A stretch of 47,973 bases of DNA from a virus. The stretch is taken from positions 1 through 47,973 of the IMG/VR virus record IMGVR_UViG_3300033979_000465; one strand, 5' to 3'. How positions within the stretch are numbered: the stretch's first letter is position 1; each line of letters begins with the position of its first letter. The notes beneath the pieces were generated by a model. It searched no databases and was not told where the DNA came from. It was given only the letters and a program-made list of their open reading frames with translations. This document shows, piece by piece, positions 15,368 to 47,529 of this stretch. A program made the position numbers and the translations under genes.

Positions 15368-15479
15368 TTTTTTCTTTTTAGTTGTCTTTATTTTAAGATT
15401 TGAACAAGATTGCCAAATGTTTACATTATGGTAGAATAATTTAAAACCTAGCCACGTGGTGAGCACAAGAATTATTGTA

Positions 15480-16148
15480 ATGCTAAAACCATTAAGATTG
15501 CTTCCTGATTTAACTATTTCAGATTTTAGCCCTGTAGCTAAGATTTATGCGGACTGGATAAGGCAGCCACGACAAAGCAATTTAAACGAGAATGATTTAC
15601 GTCAAGCAATTCAATGTTTATATGATGCGGATTTTTTACTTTACTTAAAAAGCAAAAATCAACAAATTTTTTATTTGGTACAACTTTTTATAGCTCATGG
15701 TTTTTTAGGTAATTTCCCGGAAATCAAGGAAGACTATGTACTAGATAATCACTATATGTTTTCTGAGTTCTTTACTGATTTTGAAGTTAAACAATGGTTT
15801 GAAAATAATTGTATTTCTTTGGACTCTTGTAAATATTTCCCGGAAACAAGCGGTGTTTACTGCGTAATAGCTTGTAAAGGTTCAGAATGTCATCACTTGT
15901 ATATAGGTAAAAGTGTCAATTTATTGTCTAGATGGGAGCAACATCACAAGCAAAAAGAAATAAACGCAATACAAAAACTAGGATTTAGAATAACATACAA
16001 GTATATTGCTAACTCACTACTTGCTTTTGATATTAGTGAGGTTGAAGAAATGTTAATATTGGCGTTTAAACCAATTTTAAATTCTACGCAACCATCACCC
16101 GAAAAATATACAGCAAAATTACCAAATCTTCTTGGCTGTTTAATCTAA
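15480..16148 (+). CDS. GIY-YIG endonuclease, free-standing, 222 aa
   Basis: The C-terminal half holds a GIY-YIG nuclease domain: SGVYCV (G125, V126, Y127 replacing GIY), then HLYIGKSVNLLSRWEQH with the YIG motif and the catalytic-type Arg in the following helix, and a Glu in the helix EVEEMLI. The N-terminal 110 residues are helical and unassigned. GIY-YIG enzymes nick or cut DNA and include homing endonucleases and UvrC-like repair enzymes; in phages many are free-standing mobile genes. Start: ATG 15480, with GTG 15456 as an alternative. A TTGCCA-16-TAGAAT promoter-like pair lies about 50 bases upstream. The gene ends 50 bases before the mini-CRISPR unit. Confidence 0.83.
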   Translation: MLKPLRLLPDLTISDFSPVAKIYADWIRQPRQSNLNENDLRQAIQCLYDADFLLYLKSKNQQIFYLVQLFIAHGFLGNFPEIKEDYVLDNHYMFSEFFTDFEVKQWFENNCISLDSCKYFPETSGVYCVIACKGSECHHLYIGKSVNLLSRWEQHHKQKEINAIQKLGFRITYKYIANSLLAFDISEVEEMLILAFKPILNSTQPSPEKYTAKLPNLLGCLI

Positions 16149-16198: not shown

Positions 16199-16293
16199 GT
16201 GACAATTACTAATTAAGGTAATTGAGGATTGAAACTTGATAGCGCAACAAATAGTAGCGAATAAGACTCAGTGACAATTACTAATTAAGGTAA
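16199..16293 (+). CRISPR. Mini-CRISPR: one repeat, one 35-nt spacer, one truncated repeat
   Basis: A 37-base repeat (16199-16235) is followed by a 35-base unique spacer (16236-16270) and the first 23 bases of the same repeat (16271-16293). The repeat has a perfect 7-bp stem CAATTAC/GTAATTG with loop TAATTAAG and ends in ATTGAAAC, the 5' handle typical of cyanobacterial type I and III arrays. The degenerate last repeat is normal for array ends. No cas genes are present. I found no match to the spacer elsewhere in this window by reading. Orientation is plus, downstream of the GIY-YIG gene, with a 50-base AT-rich leader-like stretch. Confidence 0.85.
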
Positions 16294-16321: not shown

Positions 16322-16504
16322 TTACCCCATACATTGCTTAATCAATAAATTTTCTTTATTGGCTAATTTTTGCGCTTTTTCTAAAGAAAATTTTAAGGCA
16401 TCTTGAATATCATAGGTAAAAGAAATACCAAAAATAGAACAGTGATCGTACACATATTTTTCCTCATCGTTTTCTACTTTATATAGGATATATTGTTCAC
16501 TCAT
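16322..16504 (-). CDS. Small hypothetical protein, 60 aa
   Basis: A small mixed alpha/beta protein (EQYILYKVENDEEKYVYDH, then a helix ALKFSLEKAQKLANKENLL). Its start overlaps the end of the SLOG-like gene by 8 bases, so it is translationally coupled and the third gene of that minus-strand operon. No family is recognised. The gene ends 29 bases from the mini-CRISPR truncated repeat. Confidence 0.65.
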   Translation of the reverse strand: MSEQYILYKVENDEEKYVYDHCSIFGISFTYDIQDALKFSLEKAQKLANKENLLIKQCMG

Positions 16505-17018
16505 TGTTATTTGCTCCGTTGTATTTTATCCAACTACCCCATACATTAGCTATGGGTATATTTTTGCTTTTAGCGTACTCAACGCATTTATAAGTTCCTC
16601 CTGATTCTTGCCCGTTGTACAGTGCTATCACATTTGTGCAGTGGTCAATCATGTATTTATTGCGCTTGTGCATCTTAGTGACGTGATATGCTCCAATTTC
16701 ACAATTTTTAGTTGTGTAATTATCAACCGTGTCAACGTAAACAATCTTATCAGCAAGAAATATTAATTTTTCCCACAATGCCCTATCCGTATCTTGCCAT
16801 TTGCAATCTTGATGGGCGAATGGTACAGCCGCTATATAGGGAATTGACAAATTCGCTGCTGCTTGAGCAATGGCAATATCCCACCCCAACGCCATACCCG
16901 TTATGATTTTAGGGACTTCGTGAAACATTAAAGCGGCTGTAGCAAGTTGCAGTAGTCTAGTAAAGCTGTAATTAGGGATTGACTGGGGACGATGCCCGGT
17001 CACTGCATAAATTTTCAT
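16497..17018 (-). CDS. SLOG-family (YpsA/DUF1273-like) nucleotide-binding protein, 173 aa
   Basis: A Rossmann-type SLOG protein: VTGHRP at the N-terminus, GMALGWDIAIAQAA (Gly-rich nucleotide loop) near residue 42, VPFAHQDCKW, and near the C-terminus ALYNGQESGGTYKCVEYAKS, the GGT-containing motif of the YpsA/DprA-related superfamily. Such proteins are predicted to bind nucleotides or nucleotide-derived signals, and phage versions are common with unknown targets. It overlaps the 17015 gene by 4 bases (ATGA) and the 16322 gene by 8, forming a tight three-gene operon with a ribbon-helix-helix-like protein. Confidence 0.8.
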   Translation of the reverse strand: MKIYAVTGHRPQSIPNYSFTRLLQLATAALMFHEVPKIITGMALGWDIAIAQAAANLSIPYIAAVPFAHQDCKWQDTDRALWEKLIFLADKIVYVDTVDNYTTKNCEIGAYHVTKMHKRNKYMIDHCTNVIALYNGQESGGTYKCVEYAKSKNIPIANVWGSWIKYNGANNNE

Positions 17019-19966: not shown

Positions 19967-21481
19967 GTGCAACTAACCAATCCATTTGCAACGCTCAGAG
20001 ATAGCTTTGAACCATTAATTAAATCTGAACGTCTGCTTTTGGGGTTGTTTGCGGCTACAGCAATAGCAGGGACAACCGCCCCTGTGTTGTGGTCACAACA
20101 GCCCAAAGAAGTTAAATTAATTGAAAATATTTGGGGATTATTCAGCAGTGCGTGTTTTACTGCTGAATGCCACCGACGACGCACAAAAGAAAAAACTTAT
20201 CAAAGCTATGAAGATGCGTCATTAGCTATTGTGAAAGAACACCTAAAGGGTGTTTTCACTGTTGAAAAAGCATCCAAAGAAATTCAGGCTAAACGGGAAT
20301 TAGCAGCCTATGTAAACTCATTGCCAATTGAAGAGAGGGGACGATGGGTACAGCAATATGGATTGCAGGGTTTAGTTGAATTACCGCAGATTCAACGAGC
20401 GGTAATTGAACAGCCAAGGCGGTTATCAGGTTCAACAATCCCTAACCCTGACATTGCAGATGTTAATGAAGATGCTGTACAAGCAATTATCAATCCTAGT
20501 GTTATGGGAATCTTGCAGGAATTATCTATGCAATATTCAGACTATATCCGATTAGATGATGCTTGGGTAGATGAATTATGTGATAGTTCATCACGGCAAA
20601 GTATGGGAGACAGAGCAAATCATCACTTTAGTTTTTGGGGTGAAACACAATCTGGTAAATCAACTTTAGCAGGTGTTTTTATCAATAAAATTGCGGCTAA
20701 ATCTCAAGGGGCGGCCATGGTTTTTGGTAGTGACCCTAAGAATTATGTAACCCGTTGGTTATGTAAATTTAGCCGTAAATTTGATGGGTTTAAAGGCAGT
20801 TTAGATCAGTGGGTTACTTTTGCCACAAAGATAATTGACGCAAGACAAGATCAGTTTAAAAATAACCGCAAGGGTAAAGGATTATCAGAATTATTCTTGA
20901 TTCAAGACGAAGTAAATGTAGTCTATGGGGGAGGTAAAGGTTTAGCGGGTCAAGTCACCAAAGAAACTGCTTTAAATCTTTGTGCAATGTGGAATTACAT
21001 AATTAATTTCACAGCAGCAATGAAGATTCACGGCATTTTTATGGGACAAAACCCACTAAGCGAGCATACAGGATTTAGTCGTCCTGCGCTTAAAAATATC
21101 TGTTTTATTGCGTTGGGTAAAGTATCTGGATATATTTTAAGTAATCCAAAAGATTTTCTTAACTTAAAATCAGAAATTATTGAATTACTTAAAAATATTT
21201 GTGAATTGCTTGATAAAGAAGAGGTTAGATATGCCCTAGTAATTCCCACTAAAGGTAATCCATACATTGCATTAATTCCAGTTTTTGATATTGATGCAAT
21301 GGAGCAAACAGAAAACGATGCAGAACCATCCATAGACCCCTATGAACTGCTAACAGATTGGATTCAAAAGCTAGGCAGAAACCCTAACGATGATGAGTTA
21401 AAACAAGCATGGCAACAAATAAAAGGAGAACAATTAACAGCCGATGCACTCACATTGTTAAAATCAAAACTAGGAATTTAA
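19967..21481 (+). CDS. Membrane-anchored FtsK/HerA-like ATPase, 504 aa
   Basis: An N-terminal transmembrane anchor (residues about 22-40, LLLGLFAATAIAGTTAPVLW), a helical region, then a P-loop ATPase domain: Walker A GETQSGKST at about 225-233 and Walker B LFLIQDEVN at about 309-317, with a sensor-like FMGQNPL near residue 357. This is the layout of FtsK/HerA/TraD-type DNA-translocating or coupling ATPases at the inner membrane. The GTG start at 19967 is chosen because AGGAGG precedes it by 6 bases. It ends an operon of small membrane and coiled-coil proteins. Possible roles: DNA transfer, segregation, or a packaging/ejection aid distinct from the true terminase. Which one cannot be told from sequence. 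Confidence 0.75.
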   Translation: MQLTNPFATLRDSFEPLIKSERLLLGLFAATAIAGTTAPVLWSQQPKEVKLIENIWGLFSSACFTAECHRRRTKEKTYQSYEDASLAIVKEHLKGVFTVEKASKEIQAKRELAAYVNSLPIEERGRWVQQYGLQGLVELPQIQRAVIEQPRRLSGSTIPNPDIADVNEDAVQAIINPSVMGILQELSMQYSDYIRLDDAWVDELCDSSSRQSMGDRANHHFSFWGETQSGKSTLAGVFINKIAAKSQGAAMVFGSDPKNYVTRWLCKFSRKFDGFKGSLDQWVTFATKIIDARQDQFKNNRKGKGLSELFLIQDEVNVVYGGGKGLAGQVTKETALNLCAMWNYIINFTAAMKIHGIFMGQNPLSEHTGFSRPALKNICFIALGKVSGYILSNPKDFLNLKSEIIELLKNICELLDKEEVRYALVIPTKGNPYIALIPVFDIDAMEQTENDAEPSIDPYELLTDWIQKLGRNPNDDELKQAWQQIKGEQLTADALTLLKSKLGI

Positions 21482-23205: not shown

Positions 23206-23841
23206 ATGGTTAATAGTGATTATCCACTGCTTAACATTCCGGCTAAGTACAGGAATTTAGCAAATTATCAATCTGGAGCTTACAGTGCAGATTTCCTTAA
23301 ATTAGCCATTGCATTATCTGATGTATGGACTCTTGACGGCTTAAGCAGTGGTGGTACTCCAGCAGGATTAGCTTTTTTATCTACTGCAACCATTACCAGA
23401 GCAGCTAATACAACAGCTTACACTGCCAATGATGTTTATGGTGGGGTATTCCAATTACAAAATATTGGCAGTAGCGGTGGTTTTGTATTTATAAGTAGTA
23501 TAGATATTATCTTCAATATTACAGCACTCCCATCGGGTATGGGTGCTTTTGCAGTGTATTTATACTCAAGCACACCACCAAGCGCAATTACCGATAATTT
23601 ACCCTATTCACTAAGTAGTGGAGATAGGGCAAGTATTATGACACTTAATGGGTTTAATCTATCAGCTTCTTTAGCTAGAGGCGGGGGATCTGTAGTTGCT
23701 GAGACATTGAATATAAATCAATTATTCAGACTTGCTCCGAGTAGTACCTCCTTGTGGGGATACCTGGTAACACTAGGGGCATTTACTCCTGCTGCTAATT
23801 CAGAAACTGCAACCATTCGCGTTAGGAGTTTTGCTCCATGA
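23206..23841 (+). CDS. Phage surface (fibre-associated) beta protein, 211 aa
   Basis: A beta-rich Gly/Ser/Thr protein with the TAYTANDVYGGVFQLQNIGSS motif, of a type widespread in phage virion surface proteins, and a C-terminal region ending in TIRVRSFAP. The gene overlaps the next by 4 bases (ATGA) and the pair is separated from the main structural operon by about 10 kb. A fibre-tip or receptor-binding accessory protein is the likely role. Confidence 0.75.
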   Translation: MVNSDYPLLNIPAKYRNLANYQSGAYSADFLKLAIALSDVWTLDGLSSGGTPAGLAFLSTATITRAANTTAYTANDVYGGVFQLQNIGSSGGFVFISSIDIIFNITALPSGMGAFAVYLYSSTPPSAITDNLPYSLSSGDRASIMTLNGFNLSASLARGGGSVVAETLNINQLFRLAPSSTSLWGYLVTLGAFTPAANSETATIRVRSFAP

Positions 23842-24886: not shown

Positions 24887-25333
24887 ATGAACAGACAACA
24901 ATGGCTACAAACCCAAATTACTAAATTCCCTGAATTATCCGCAAGGGAATTAGTAGCATTATTAAATCAAAAAGAGTGGATTGATAATCCTAATTCACAA
25001 CAGCAAGTTCCCAAAATTCCTACATTAAAGGAGTTAAGGGAATCAGTTTTGTTTTCTGAATCTCTCGAATTTCTAAAATTACCGGAATTTATGCACAGAT
25101 TAGAAAGTGCAGTTAGTCAGGGAAATTTAGAAGATATAGCTTACTACTATCAATTAGCAAAGGAGTCTAATTTGCTTTCTGAACAGACTAAAGCAAAGTT
25201 GGATTTACTAATGAATCAAACAATTCCTGATCCAAATTGGCAAGCTCAACTATATATTTCACCTGCTGAATTAGTGGGATTTGAGGTAATTTTAGTTAAT
25301 GAAGTTGAAGAGATAATAGCCAGGGTAGTATAG
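24887..25333 (+). CDS. Hypothetical protein, 148 aa
   Basis: A helical N-terminal half (NRQQWLQTQITKFPELSARELVALLNQKEW), a Leu/Glu-rich centre and a C-terminal alpha/beta segment (LYISPAELVGFEVILVNEVEEIIARVV). Gln-rich but without a family signature. It stands alone between the fibre module and the minus-strand block and is followed by a long AT-rich hairpin. Confidence 0.65.
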   Translation: MNRQQWLQTQITKFPELSARELVALLNQKEWIDNPNSQQQVPKIPTLKELRESVLFSESLEFLKLPEFMHRLESAVSQGNLEDIAYYYQLAKESNLLSEQTKAKLDLLMNQTIPDPNWQAQLYISPAELVGFEVILVNEVEEIIARVV

Positions 25334-29849: not shown

Positions 29850-30260
29850 TTAAACTGGAAACATTAACTTTTTAACCGTTTCAGACTTTAAATAAACCAT
29901 ACCTTGTGGTGGCAATATTCCACAATTACGCATTGCTGTTAGCGGTATGGGGTTAATTAATATTGGCTGTTTCAACAATAAGCCATAGCCTATTTTATTG
30001 CCTAGATAAGTCTTGATTTCATCAGGAGACAAGCATAAATCATTGGCATAATCAATCATGAAATCTGCATTGCCATAAATTACGCCAATAACATCGCACC
30101 ATCCCACTATTTTGGCAGTGGGCATTGTCTCGTAAATTAGCACTTTATTGAATGCTAATTGCTTGCCATTCATACGCGGTTTAACTTTGCGGAGTTCAAT
30201 CGCCTTTTTACCGCTAAACACATTTTTGGAGTGTCTTGGATGCAATGAAATTAACAACAT
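29850..30260 (-). CDS. ASCH/PUA-like domain protein, 136 aa
   Basis: The N-terminus (LLISLHPRHSKNVFSGKKAIELRKVKP) and VLIYETMPTAKIVGWCDVIGVIYG fit the ASCH-domain pattern (PUA-like fold) with the conserved GxKxxExR-type region; ASCH proteins bind RNA or modified nucleotides. The protein is the whole domain, with a short C-terminal extension. It sits next to an unknown 68-aa gene and the HNH gene; a role in nucleic-acid recognition is inferred. Confidence 0.72.
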   Translation of the reverse strand: MLLISLHPRHSKNVFSGKKAIELRKVKPRMNGKQLAFNKVLIYETMPTAKIVGWCDVIGVIYGNADFMIDYANDLCLSPDEIKTYLGNKIGYGLLLKQPILINPIPLTAMRNCGILPPQGMVYLKSETVKKLMFPV

Positions 30261-45354: not shown

Positions 45355-47529
45355 ATGAATGAAATTCCAGTATTTGACATCCGCAATTTTACAGAGCAAT
45401 TAGTACCAAATCCAAAGGAAAAAAATAAATACATTTGCCCCAATTGTAGTGGGCATAATTTAGCAATTGACAAGAAAACAGGGGCTTATCAGTGCTTTAA
45501 CGGATGTTCTAATAAAGAGGTCCGGGAAGCTGTCAAGCCCTGGGCAGAGGTCAAGGAAGAGTTAAGGGAAAACGGTTTCAAAAGTGCAGCTAGACCAAAG
45601 ATTATGACGACATTAGCAGTTAATAAACCTAAAGAGATTCAACAAGAGGACTATCAAATATTAACGCAAGTATACGGCGTTGATTTCCCTAAAATTACGA
45701 ACTTAGGGATGGAAAGATATATTGATTTTGTATATTCTCCTACGCAAATAGTGCGTAGGATGGAAGAAAAAACAGCGGCTGGATGGAAGAAAAAGCCAGG
45801 GGACAAAAAAGGTATAAGACCCTGGCATTGTGATGATAAGGGTGTATGGCATGAGGCAAAAGGCGATAATATATGGCAACCTTACCAATGGCAAGATGTA
45901 GTAAATGCTGGTAAGGGTAAATGGGTGCTATTTGTTGAGGGGGAAAAATGTGTCGAGTACGCAAGGGTGAAATTTAATCTTGTGGCTACAACCTTTATGG
46001 GTAGTGCATGGGATGAAACGATGTCTGATTGGTTTAATAAAATGCGTGAAATTGGTGTGGCTGGCGTGATAATGTGGCCAGATCATGATAAACCAGGCTA
46101 TGAAAAAGCTAAGAAGGTTAAGGAAATTTGCAATAAATTAAATATTTCATATATTCAACTAGACCCGCTTAGAATATGGTCGGCAATGCCAGATAAAGGG
46201 GACATTGCGGATTATTGGTTGGCTCACCAAAAACAGGATAAAAAAGTAATTTGGGATATTTTAGTTAGCTCAATTCACTCTTATAATGAAGAAAAACTAG
46301 ACCCAATTAGAACAGCCATTATAGAGGCTATGGACAAGAAGATGCCAGAAGCAAAGCAATTTCTGACATTGTATCAGGAAAATAATGATCCATTGTATCA
46401 GCAGATGTTGAAGCAAATCCTCATCGGACAAGGATACAATCAAAATATTCTTGATAGCATTTTATCAGGGGTAAACATGAACCCTAAAAGACCGCCAACG
46501 GTAATGACTGGTCAAGAATTTATTGATTATGTGTTCCCTACAAGTGGCTGGAAATATCCAGAATTAGTAATTGATTGTGGGGTGCAAATCGTAAGTGGTT
46601 TACCAGGGGCAATGAAGACCACTTTTAGCTATGACATGGGGTTTCATTATGTTAATAATTTGCCGTTTTTGGGGGAAGAATTAAGCATTGATGCAAGGCT
46701 AGAAAACAAGAAATTATTAATAATTAACAGTGACCAGCAATCACAGGAATGTCAAAGTTTAATCAAACAATCGCCACTAGCCTTAAAGGCAATTCGTGAT
46801 GGTAAATTGCATATCATTGGTGGTAATCCAGAAGAGGAAAAATGGAATTTAAAATATCTTCCTTGGCTTGAGGAACAGTGCAAAAAGTTCCGTTACACCA
46901 TGATGATTATTGACTCATACAATAGTATTCACAATCATCTACCAGACTGGAATGAGAACTTATCAACAGCGGCACAGGGTATCAATGCTTTAAGGGCATT
47001 GGCTGAAAAATATAATATTGCAATCATCGTCATCCATCACGACGGGAAAAGAGAAGATGGAAGTGCAACTATTAAAACCAGAGGGAATACAGCTATTCCC
47101 GGCGCGGCTTCTGCTGTAATGAGTTTGACTGAAACCAAAGAAGATAAAAATGGAAACCGCGACCCGTTAATTAGATTTTTAGAAATATCGAAATTAAGAG
47201 GCGGTGCGTGTGGAAAGATGGTATTAAAATTTTCACCTGAGAAGCGTTCATTTGACGTTTTGCCGGATGGAAACCCACAAAACAGAGAAACGCTCAATAA
47301 CATTGCTAATAGCTTATTTACCAGCAAATTTACAGGCTATGACGAGCATTCATTTGAGGATTTAAGACGTGGCTTTGTCGCTGGCGTTGGTGGCGATAGA
47401 AGTCTGTTTTTAGCCCGTGTCCTGACTAAATTAGAGCAAAGGGGACAAATACAAAGGGTAATGCGGGGTGATAATGTTTATTACAGGAATCGCTCTGTAC
47501 CCAACGTTAAAGTAGAGGATTTAATTTAA
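45355..47529 (+). CDS. Primase-helicase (zinc finger, TOPRIM, RecA-like), 724 aa
   Basis: A bifunctional replication protein. Zinc finger: C28-P-N-C31 and C47-F-N-G-C51. TOPRIM: E195 in VEGEKC and D243, D245 in WPDHDKPG. RecA/RepA-like helicase: Walker A GLPGAMKTT at 415-423, Walker B MMIIDSYN with D520, HHDGK, and a C-terminal winged helix. It makes primers and unwinds DNA at the fork, with the polymerase supplied by the host. The order matches plasmid and phage primase-helicases of the RepA-hexamer kind. A short gap separates it from the hairpin before the seam-spanning gene. Confidence 0.88.
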   Translation: MNEIPVFDIRNFTEQLVPNPKEKNKYICPNCSGHNLAIDKKTGAYQCFNGCSNKEVREAVKPWAEVKEELRENGFKSAARPKIMTTLAVNKPKEIQQEDYQILTQVYGVDFPKITNLGMERYIDFVYSPTQIVRRMEEKTAAGWKKKPGDKKGIRPWHCDDKGVWHEAKGDNIWQPYQWQDVVNAGKGKWVLFVEGEKCVEYARVKFNLVATTFMGSAWDETMSDWFNKMREIGVAGVIMWPDHDKPGYEKAKKVKEICNKLNISYIQLDPLRIWSAMPDKGDIADYWLAHQKQDKKVIWDILVSSIHSYNEEKLDPIRTAIIEAMDKKMPEAKQFLTLYQENNDPLYQQMLKQILIGQGYNQNILDSILSGVNMNPKRPPTVMTGQEFIDYVFPTSGWKYPELVIDCGVQIVSGLPGAMKTTFSYDMGFHYVNNLPFLGEELSIDARLENKKLLIINSDQQSQECQSLIKQSPLALKAIRDGKLHIIGGNPEEEKWNLKYLPWLEEQCKKFRYTMMIIDSYNSIHNHLPDWNENLSTAAQGINALRALAEKYNIAIIVIHHDGKREDGSATIKTRGNTAIPGAASAVMSLTETKEDKNGNRDPLIRFLEISKLRGGACGKMVLKFSPEKRSFDVLPDGNPQNRETLNNIANSLFTSKFTGYDEHSFEDLRRGFVAGVGGDRSLFLARVLTKLEQRGQIQRVMRGDNVYYRNRSVPNVKVEDLI

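Follow-up and report, generated by a model that had tools for sequence, protein, structure and literature searches.

Mini-CRISPR arrays have been described in phages, and recombination with host arrays is regarded as their likely origin (PMC6858448, PMC11656645). Those of the Sulfolobales viruses SPV1 and SPV2, together with leaderless phage mini-arrays, have one spacer and a host-identical repeat, lie between viral genes, and are without cas genes. Solitary repeats are represented by the Racr elements; RacrIC1 inhibits type I-C from the 3' position of an operon that it shares with AcrIC5, and a non-targeting crRNA is also inhibitory, relieving interference (PMC10651486). CreR/CreA elements comprise a repeat, a spacer, and an incomplete second repeat, giving a crRNA-like RNA (PMC12737573).

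Judged by its sequence anatomy, the element described here is a leaderless virus-borne mini-CRISPR array. It lies in IMG/VR record IMGVR_UViG_3300033979_000465, analyzed over its whole 47,973 bases (the window), which codes for a terminase, a major head protein, and further virion proteins. The nearest named relative of this phage is cyanophage S-EIV1, at about 30 to 33% protein identity, and no close relatives were found in IMG/VR via the replication-like protein and terminase. The element and the region upstream of it are organized as follows:

15410..15437, + strand: best upstream promoter-like site (TTGCCA-16-TAGAAT, extended -10), with a scan score not above chance
15456..16148, + strand: co-directional upstream gene, 230 aa, with a weak GIY-YIG nuclease domain, ending 50 nt before the repeat
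16199..16235, + strand: full 37-nt CRISPR repeat R1, GTGACAATTACTAATTAAGGTAATTGAGGATTGAAAC, with the exact sequence of the type I-C repeat found in Dolichospermum sp. ST_sed8 and Sphaerospermopsis kisseleviana
16203..16224, + strand: hairpin of R1, eight pairs joining 16203-16210 to 16217-16224, of which the innermost is a U-G wobble, with a 6-nt loop
16225..16235, + strand: predicted 11-nt crRNA 5' handle, AGGATTGAAAC, placed by alignment, with the handle length taken from PMC5965380 and the cut position predicted
16236..16270, + strand: 35-nt spacer, without a match in the target search
16271..16293, + strand: truncated 23-nt second repeat R2, 100% identical to the first 23 of the 37 nt of the repeat

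The two repeats, whose starts are 72 nt apart, are the only copies found by a window-wide search. The R1 stem (CAATTAC/GTAATTG) has seven perfect pairs plus a closing T-G pair and the RNA folds at -6.8 kcal/mol (z -3.0); the hairpin ends at 16224, leaving the 11-nt 3' tail that accompanies the hairpin in type I-C, and the predicted Cas5c cut is at its 3' base. R2 lacks the last three stem bases, the predicted cleavage site, and the handle, and its remaining stem folds as four pairs plus a wobble. The coordinates agree throughout with the original prediction of a 37-base repeat with a perfect 7-bp stem, a 35-base spacer, and a 23-base truncated repeat forming a 72-base unit. The crRNA start that it proposed (8 nt, ATTGAAAC) is probably wrong, however, because the cognate system is, as argued below, type I-C, for which an 11-nt handle made by Cas5d/Cas5c is expected (PMC5965380). 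A search of Rfam with the element gave no match.

The exact 37-mer, sought in cyanobacterial CRISPR arrays as had been proposed, is present in arrays of Dolichospermum sp. ST_sed8 (8 copies), Sphaerospermopsis kisseleviana NIES-73 (9 copies), and Cuspidothrix issatschenkoi, where it occurs once, in an array whose remaining copies carry one or two base changes; in a further genome (G200) the exact 37-mer also stands in an array, and the repeat family is present in 15 of the 218 genomes of these species' family. Arrays with this repeat adjoin genes for Cas5c (TIGR01876), Cas8c/Csd1, Cas7c/Csd2, and Cas3, the Csd1 matches lying just below the curated cut-off, and on this gene neighborhood the cognate CRISPR system of the viral repeat is type I-C. 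The commonest host spacer length, 35 nt (41 of the 157 spacers in nine arrays), is that of the viral spacer. Because the exact 37-mer is arrayed in at least three cyanobacterial species and one more genome, the 72-nt unit is as long as the host unit, and the spacer has the modal host length, we take the element to be far beyond chance. In eleven repeat variants the eight stem pairs are all preserved, two of them by changes on either side, and the handle AGGATTGAAAC is invariant across all variants compared; this covariation supports an RNA hairpin of the repeat family in general, not of the viral copy in particular.

In S. kisseleviana (L011, L009) the I-C locus reads cas3-cas5c-cas8c-cas7c-array, and cas4-cas1-cas2 are absent from the flanks read; the adaptation genes are absent or elsewhere. 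In C. issatschenkoi CHARLIE-1 (L008:5725-6108, L046), which may have a dying I-C system, both cas7c and cas3 seem to be cut short, and the array directly adjoins what is left of cas7c, with no leader of the kind present in relatives. Host genomes also contain leaderless single repeats resembling locus remnants, one of which (L057) shares the host trailer.

Alignment showed no host-type leader beside the viral array, whereas the host leaders used as a positive control align with one another over 100 to 200 nt; canonical spacer acquisition is thus unlikely. The proposed lack of cas genes also held: host Cas3, Cas5c, Cas8c, and Cas7c have no tblastn match in the window, and no cas families were found among its scanned open reading frames, in a contig that may be incomplete. 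Nor were anti-CRISPR protein families recognized among the neighboring genes. No promoter or terminator belonging to the array stands out in the scan, so transcription would be by read-through, comparable to that of RacrIC1 from its operon (PMC10651486), with the GIY-YIG gene as the likely source. Vibrio phage ICP1 has an anti-defense locus occupied alternately by a GIY-YIG nuclease (Odn) and by CRISPR-Cas (PMC11656645), and the parallel with the GIY-YIG gene directly before this array may be coincidence. On the other side, a gene for a SLOG/YpsA-DprA-like protein (16497-17018) adjoins the array on the opposite strand.

The element has one spacer between host-identical repeats, as mini-arrays do, with the reservation that R2 is only 23 of 37 nt. 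The SPV arrays have a leader and this one does not, although a leader is not strictly defining since leaderless phage cases are reported; further differences from known mini-arrays are the truncated R2, the lack of a protospacer in our searches, and the setting in a cyanophage and a bacterial type I-C context. With Racr elements it shares a full host-like I-C repeat, similar in sequence and fold to the repeat of the system that would be inhibited, a position behind a co-directional gene, and the lack of cas genes, and related phages carry true solitary units. A solitary unit is defined by having neither a complete nor a partial repeat within 100 bp, whereas R2 here starts 72 nt after R1, following a unit-length spacer, an arrangement that SRUFinder would call a mini-array (PMC10651486). 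The element thus falls outside the solitary repeat units as defined, yet may work like Racr. Unlike CreR/CreA, it lies in a phage and not at a cas locus, its first repeat is not degenerate, and the spacer shows no convincing partial complementarity to the promoter of a cas or toxin gene.

Members of this repeat family are also present on other mobile elements. In IMG/VR, a search with a degenerate pattern brought up four virus contigs in addition to the window, and plasmids and genomes supplied further copies:

L012:6658-6694, - strand: solitary repeat, one copy, without spacer or second repeat
L013:6935-6971, + strand: solitary repeat, one copy, without spacer or second repeat
L014:8175-8211, - strand: solitary repeat, one copy, without spacer or second repeat
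L006:14136-14172: single exact repeat copy in a 197-kb virus
L003:4001-4037, L004:4001-4037, L010:7762-7798, and L054:4001-4037: conserved solitary I-C-type repeats of Dolichospermum/Anabaena sp. 90 plasmids and two genomes
L005:5927-6037: two repeats 74 nt apart on a Calothrix plasmid, then a strong 16-pair terminator-like hairpin

The repeats of L012, L013, and L014, a variant identical to the array repeat of genome G052, lie 19 nt past the stop codon of a gene, and a strong terminator-like hairpin with a T run follows about 30 nt further on. These three contigs have in common with the window the tail genes at 23206-23841 (up to 72% identity), 24887-25333, and 29850-30260, and it is a homologue of the last that directly precedes the solitary repeat. 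They are textbook Racr candidates, better suited than the window element for a bench test. The repeats of L003, L004, L010, and L054 share a gene context, 15 to 16 nt past a small gene and followed by a hairpin, and their sequence variants retain the stem through G-U pairs. Elsewhere, the L006 repeat runs directly into an ATG, with its GAGG placed as the Shine-Dalgarno sequence of a 64-aa open reading frame, and in the two-repeat mini-array of L005 the stem of the first repeat is broken and that of the second is perfect. We also note that window positions 20438-21316 have 64% DNA identity with C229:11804-12682, a homologous gene of the Nostocales genome G121 that may belong to a prophage, and that this genome carries the I-C repeat too.

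There is evidence that the phage lineage is targeted by the cognate system, as a Cuspidothrix type I-C spacer (spacer 19, L046_19) matches a site in the tail region of the window:

23408..23441, - strand: site in tail-region gene 23206-23841, matching spacer 19 at 27 of 34 bases

The same spacer matches L013 at 28 of 34 bases, and the match is perfect over the first 11 bases in the window and the first 18 in L013. Of 600 shuffled versions of the spacer, the best reached 25 matches in the window and 23 in L013 (9 and 11 mismatches); phages with this tail gene therefore face the cognate I-C system, and the differences from the spacer fit a diverged homologue of its original target. In other I-C systems the 5' flank is TTC. 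At the window site it is CCA, and we therefore do not claim that this particular phage is cut via spacer 19.

The viral spacer itself found no counterpart. No protospacer was detected by blastn against 50,697 phage records and 72,556 plasmids, among the 218 family genomes with up to 3 mismatches, or in IMG/VR with exact patterns and wobble-tolerant patterns for two of the three reading frames, and the spacer matched none of the 157 spacers of the host arrays. A search of the host genomes for further spacers or prophage remnants gave short matches, and the four that were read lie outside arrays. The viral spacer has no match beyond 11 nt elsewhere in the window, in keeping with the earlier reading by eye that it matched nothing else there. 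Of the original prediction as a whole, a virus-borne, one-spacer array with a host-identical repeat and no cas genes stands, while its proposal that competing viruses are targeted is so far not supported by any protospacer in phages, plasmids, family genomes, or IMG/VR. An unmatched spacer is neither support for a guide role nor fatal to it.

The explanation we favor, with about even confidence, is that this is a leaderless one-spacer phage mini-CRISPR array built from a Nostocales host I-C repeat, without cas genes of its own, that acts mainly as an RNA decoy. It starts from the observed repeat identity, the coupling to host I-C cas genes, the unit length, the missing leader, the tail-gene spacer match, and the spacer-less copies; all that it contains beyond sequence identity we infer. 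The array would be transcribed as the 3' tail of the GIY-YIG gene and host Cas5c would cut at the base of the R1 hairpin, but a normal crRNA 3' end would not form, because R2 has no cleavage site and a stem of only four pairs plus a wobble. The resulting RNA, AGGATTGAAAC followed by the spacer and a crippled second hairpin, would load onto host Cas5c/Cas7c. Its main benefit would lie in sequestering the host I-C proteins in unproductive complexes while infection proceeds, in the manner of Racr or a non-targeting crRNA, and guidance to a rival element may occur in addition. The decoy role is ranked first since an RNA of this kind could still keep Cas5c and Cas7c occupied, and non-targeting crRNA relieves interference (PMC10651486). 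Against it, the array has neither a clear promoter nor a clear terminator of its own, a repeat alone suffices for a decoy, so a unit-length spacer and an undecayed 23-nt R2 are not predicted, and its choice over a guide rests partly on missing protospacers when viral collections are far from complete.

A crRNA that directs host type I-C Cascade and Cas3 at a competing phage or plasmid, giving superinfection exclusion, would account for the complete unit anatomy, the correct repeat and handle, and the modal spacer length, and it has precedents in archaeal virus mini-arrays (PMC6858448) and leaderless phage mini-arrays (PMC11656645); the window also offers no self-target beyond 11 nt. We nonetheless consider it doubtful, and a decoy probably the better explanation, since Cas5c would not make the crRNA 3' end from an R2 lacking the stem base and cleavage site, and without a leader there would be no canonical acquisition; the missing protospacer counts for little, since unmatched spacers are common. 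The spacer-less repeats on related phages and plasmids would favor a decoy at least as strongly as a guide. Somewhat less probable still is that the element is dead, a piece of host array (or a repeat with one spacer taken up) recently recombined into the phage and undecayed so far. The broken R2, the missing leader, the lack of a clear promoter or terminator, and the locus remnants in host genomes would suit such a fragment, but R1 is an intact, exact 37-mer, co-directional behind a gene like the solitary repeats of L012 to L014, L003/L004, and L006, and recurrence on unrelated mobile elements argues for use.

The incomplete second repeat also recalls CreR/CreA anatomy, in which a short seed would direct Cascade to shut down expression of host cas genes or of a phage gene, and an 8-nt seed flanked 5' by TTC is present once, at window position 46451. 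That site is inside a gene and not at a promoter, a single site is not far from chance in 96 kb of AT-rich strands (an expectation estimated by hand), and no 9-nt seed match with TTC is present in the host cas loci read, making such a regulator very improbable. To an assembly artefact, with host array reads joined to a phage contig, we give hardly any credence: the record is a single metagenomic contig and no second copy of the phage was found in the collections, but both flanks are phage, the joins would need an overlap of only 23 nt on one side and none on the other, and related phages carry the repeat independently.

A more specific version of the decoy reading is a hybrid RNA anti-CRISPR, in which the cut R2 lets Cas5c make the 5' handle and not the 3' end, so that a guide-bearing RNA traps I-C proteins as one of a family of repeat mimics in cyanophages and plasmids of bloom-forming Nostocales. 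We regard this as speculative and rather unlikely; if true, the solitary decoys and the one-spacer arrays would represent different stages of a single evolving element. A literature search for solitary repeats and cyanobacteria returned only the Racr paper (PMC10651486), and such elements in cyanophages thus seem little described. For this phage, whose nearest named relative is distant, the repeat supplies a link to a host. Viral CRISPR mimicry is known in two forms, the solitary repeat and the mini-array, and both are found here in one set of mobile elements that appear to share hosts, namely bloom-forming cyanobacteria with type I-C CRISPR, and the step from decoy to guide, or the reverse, becomes testable.
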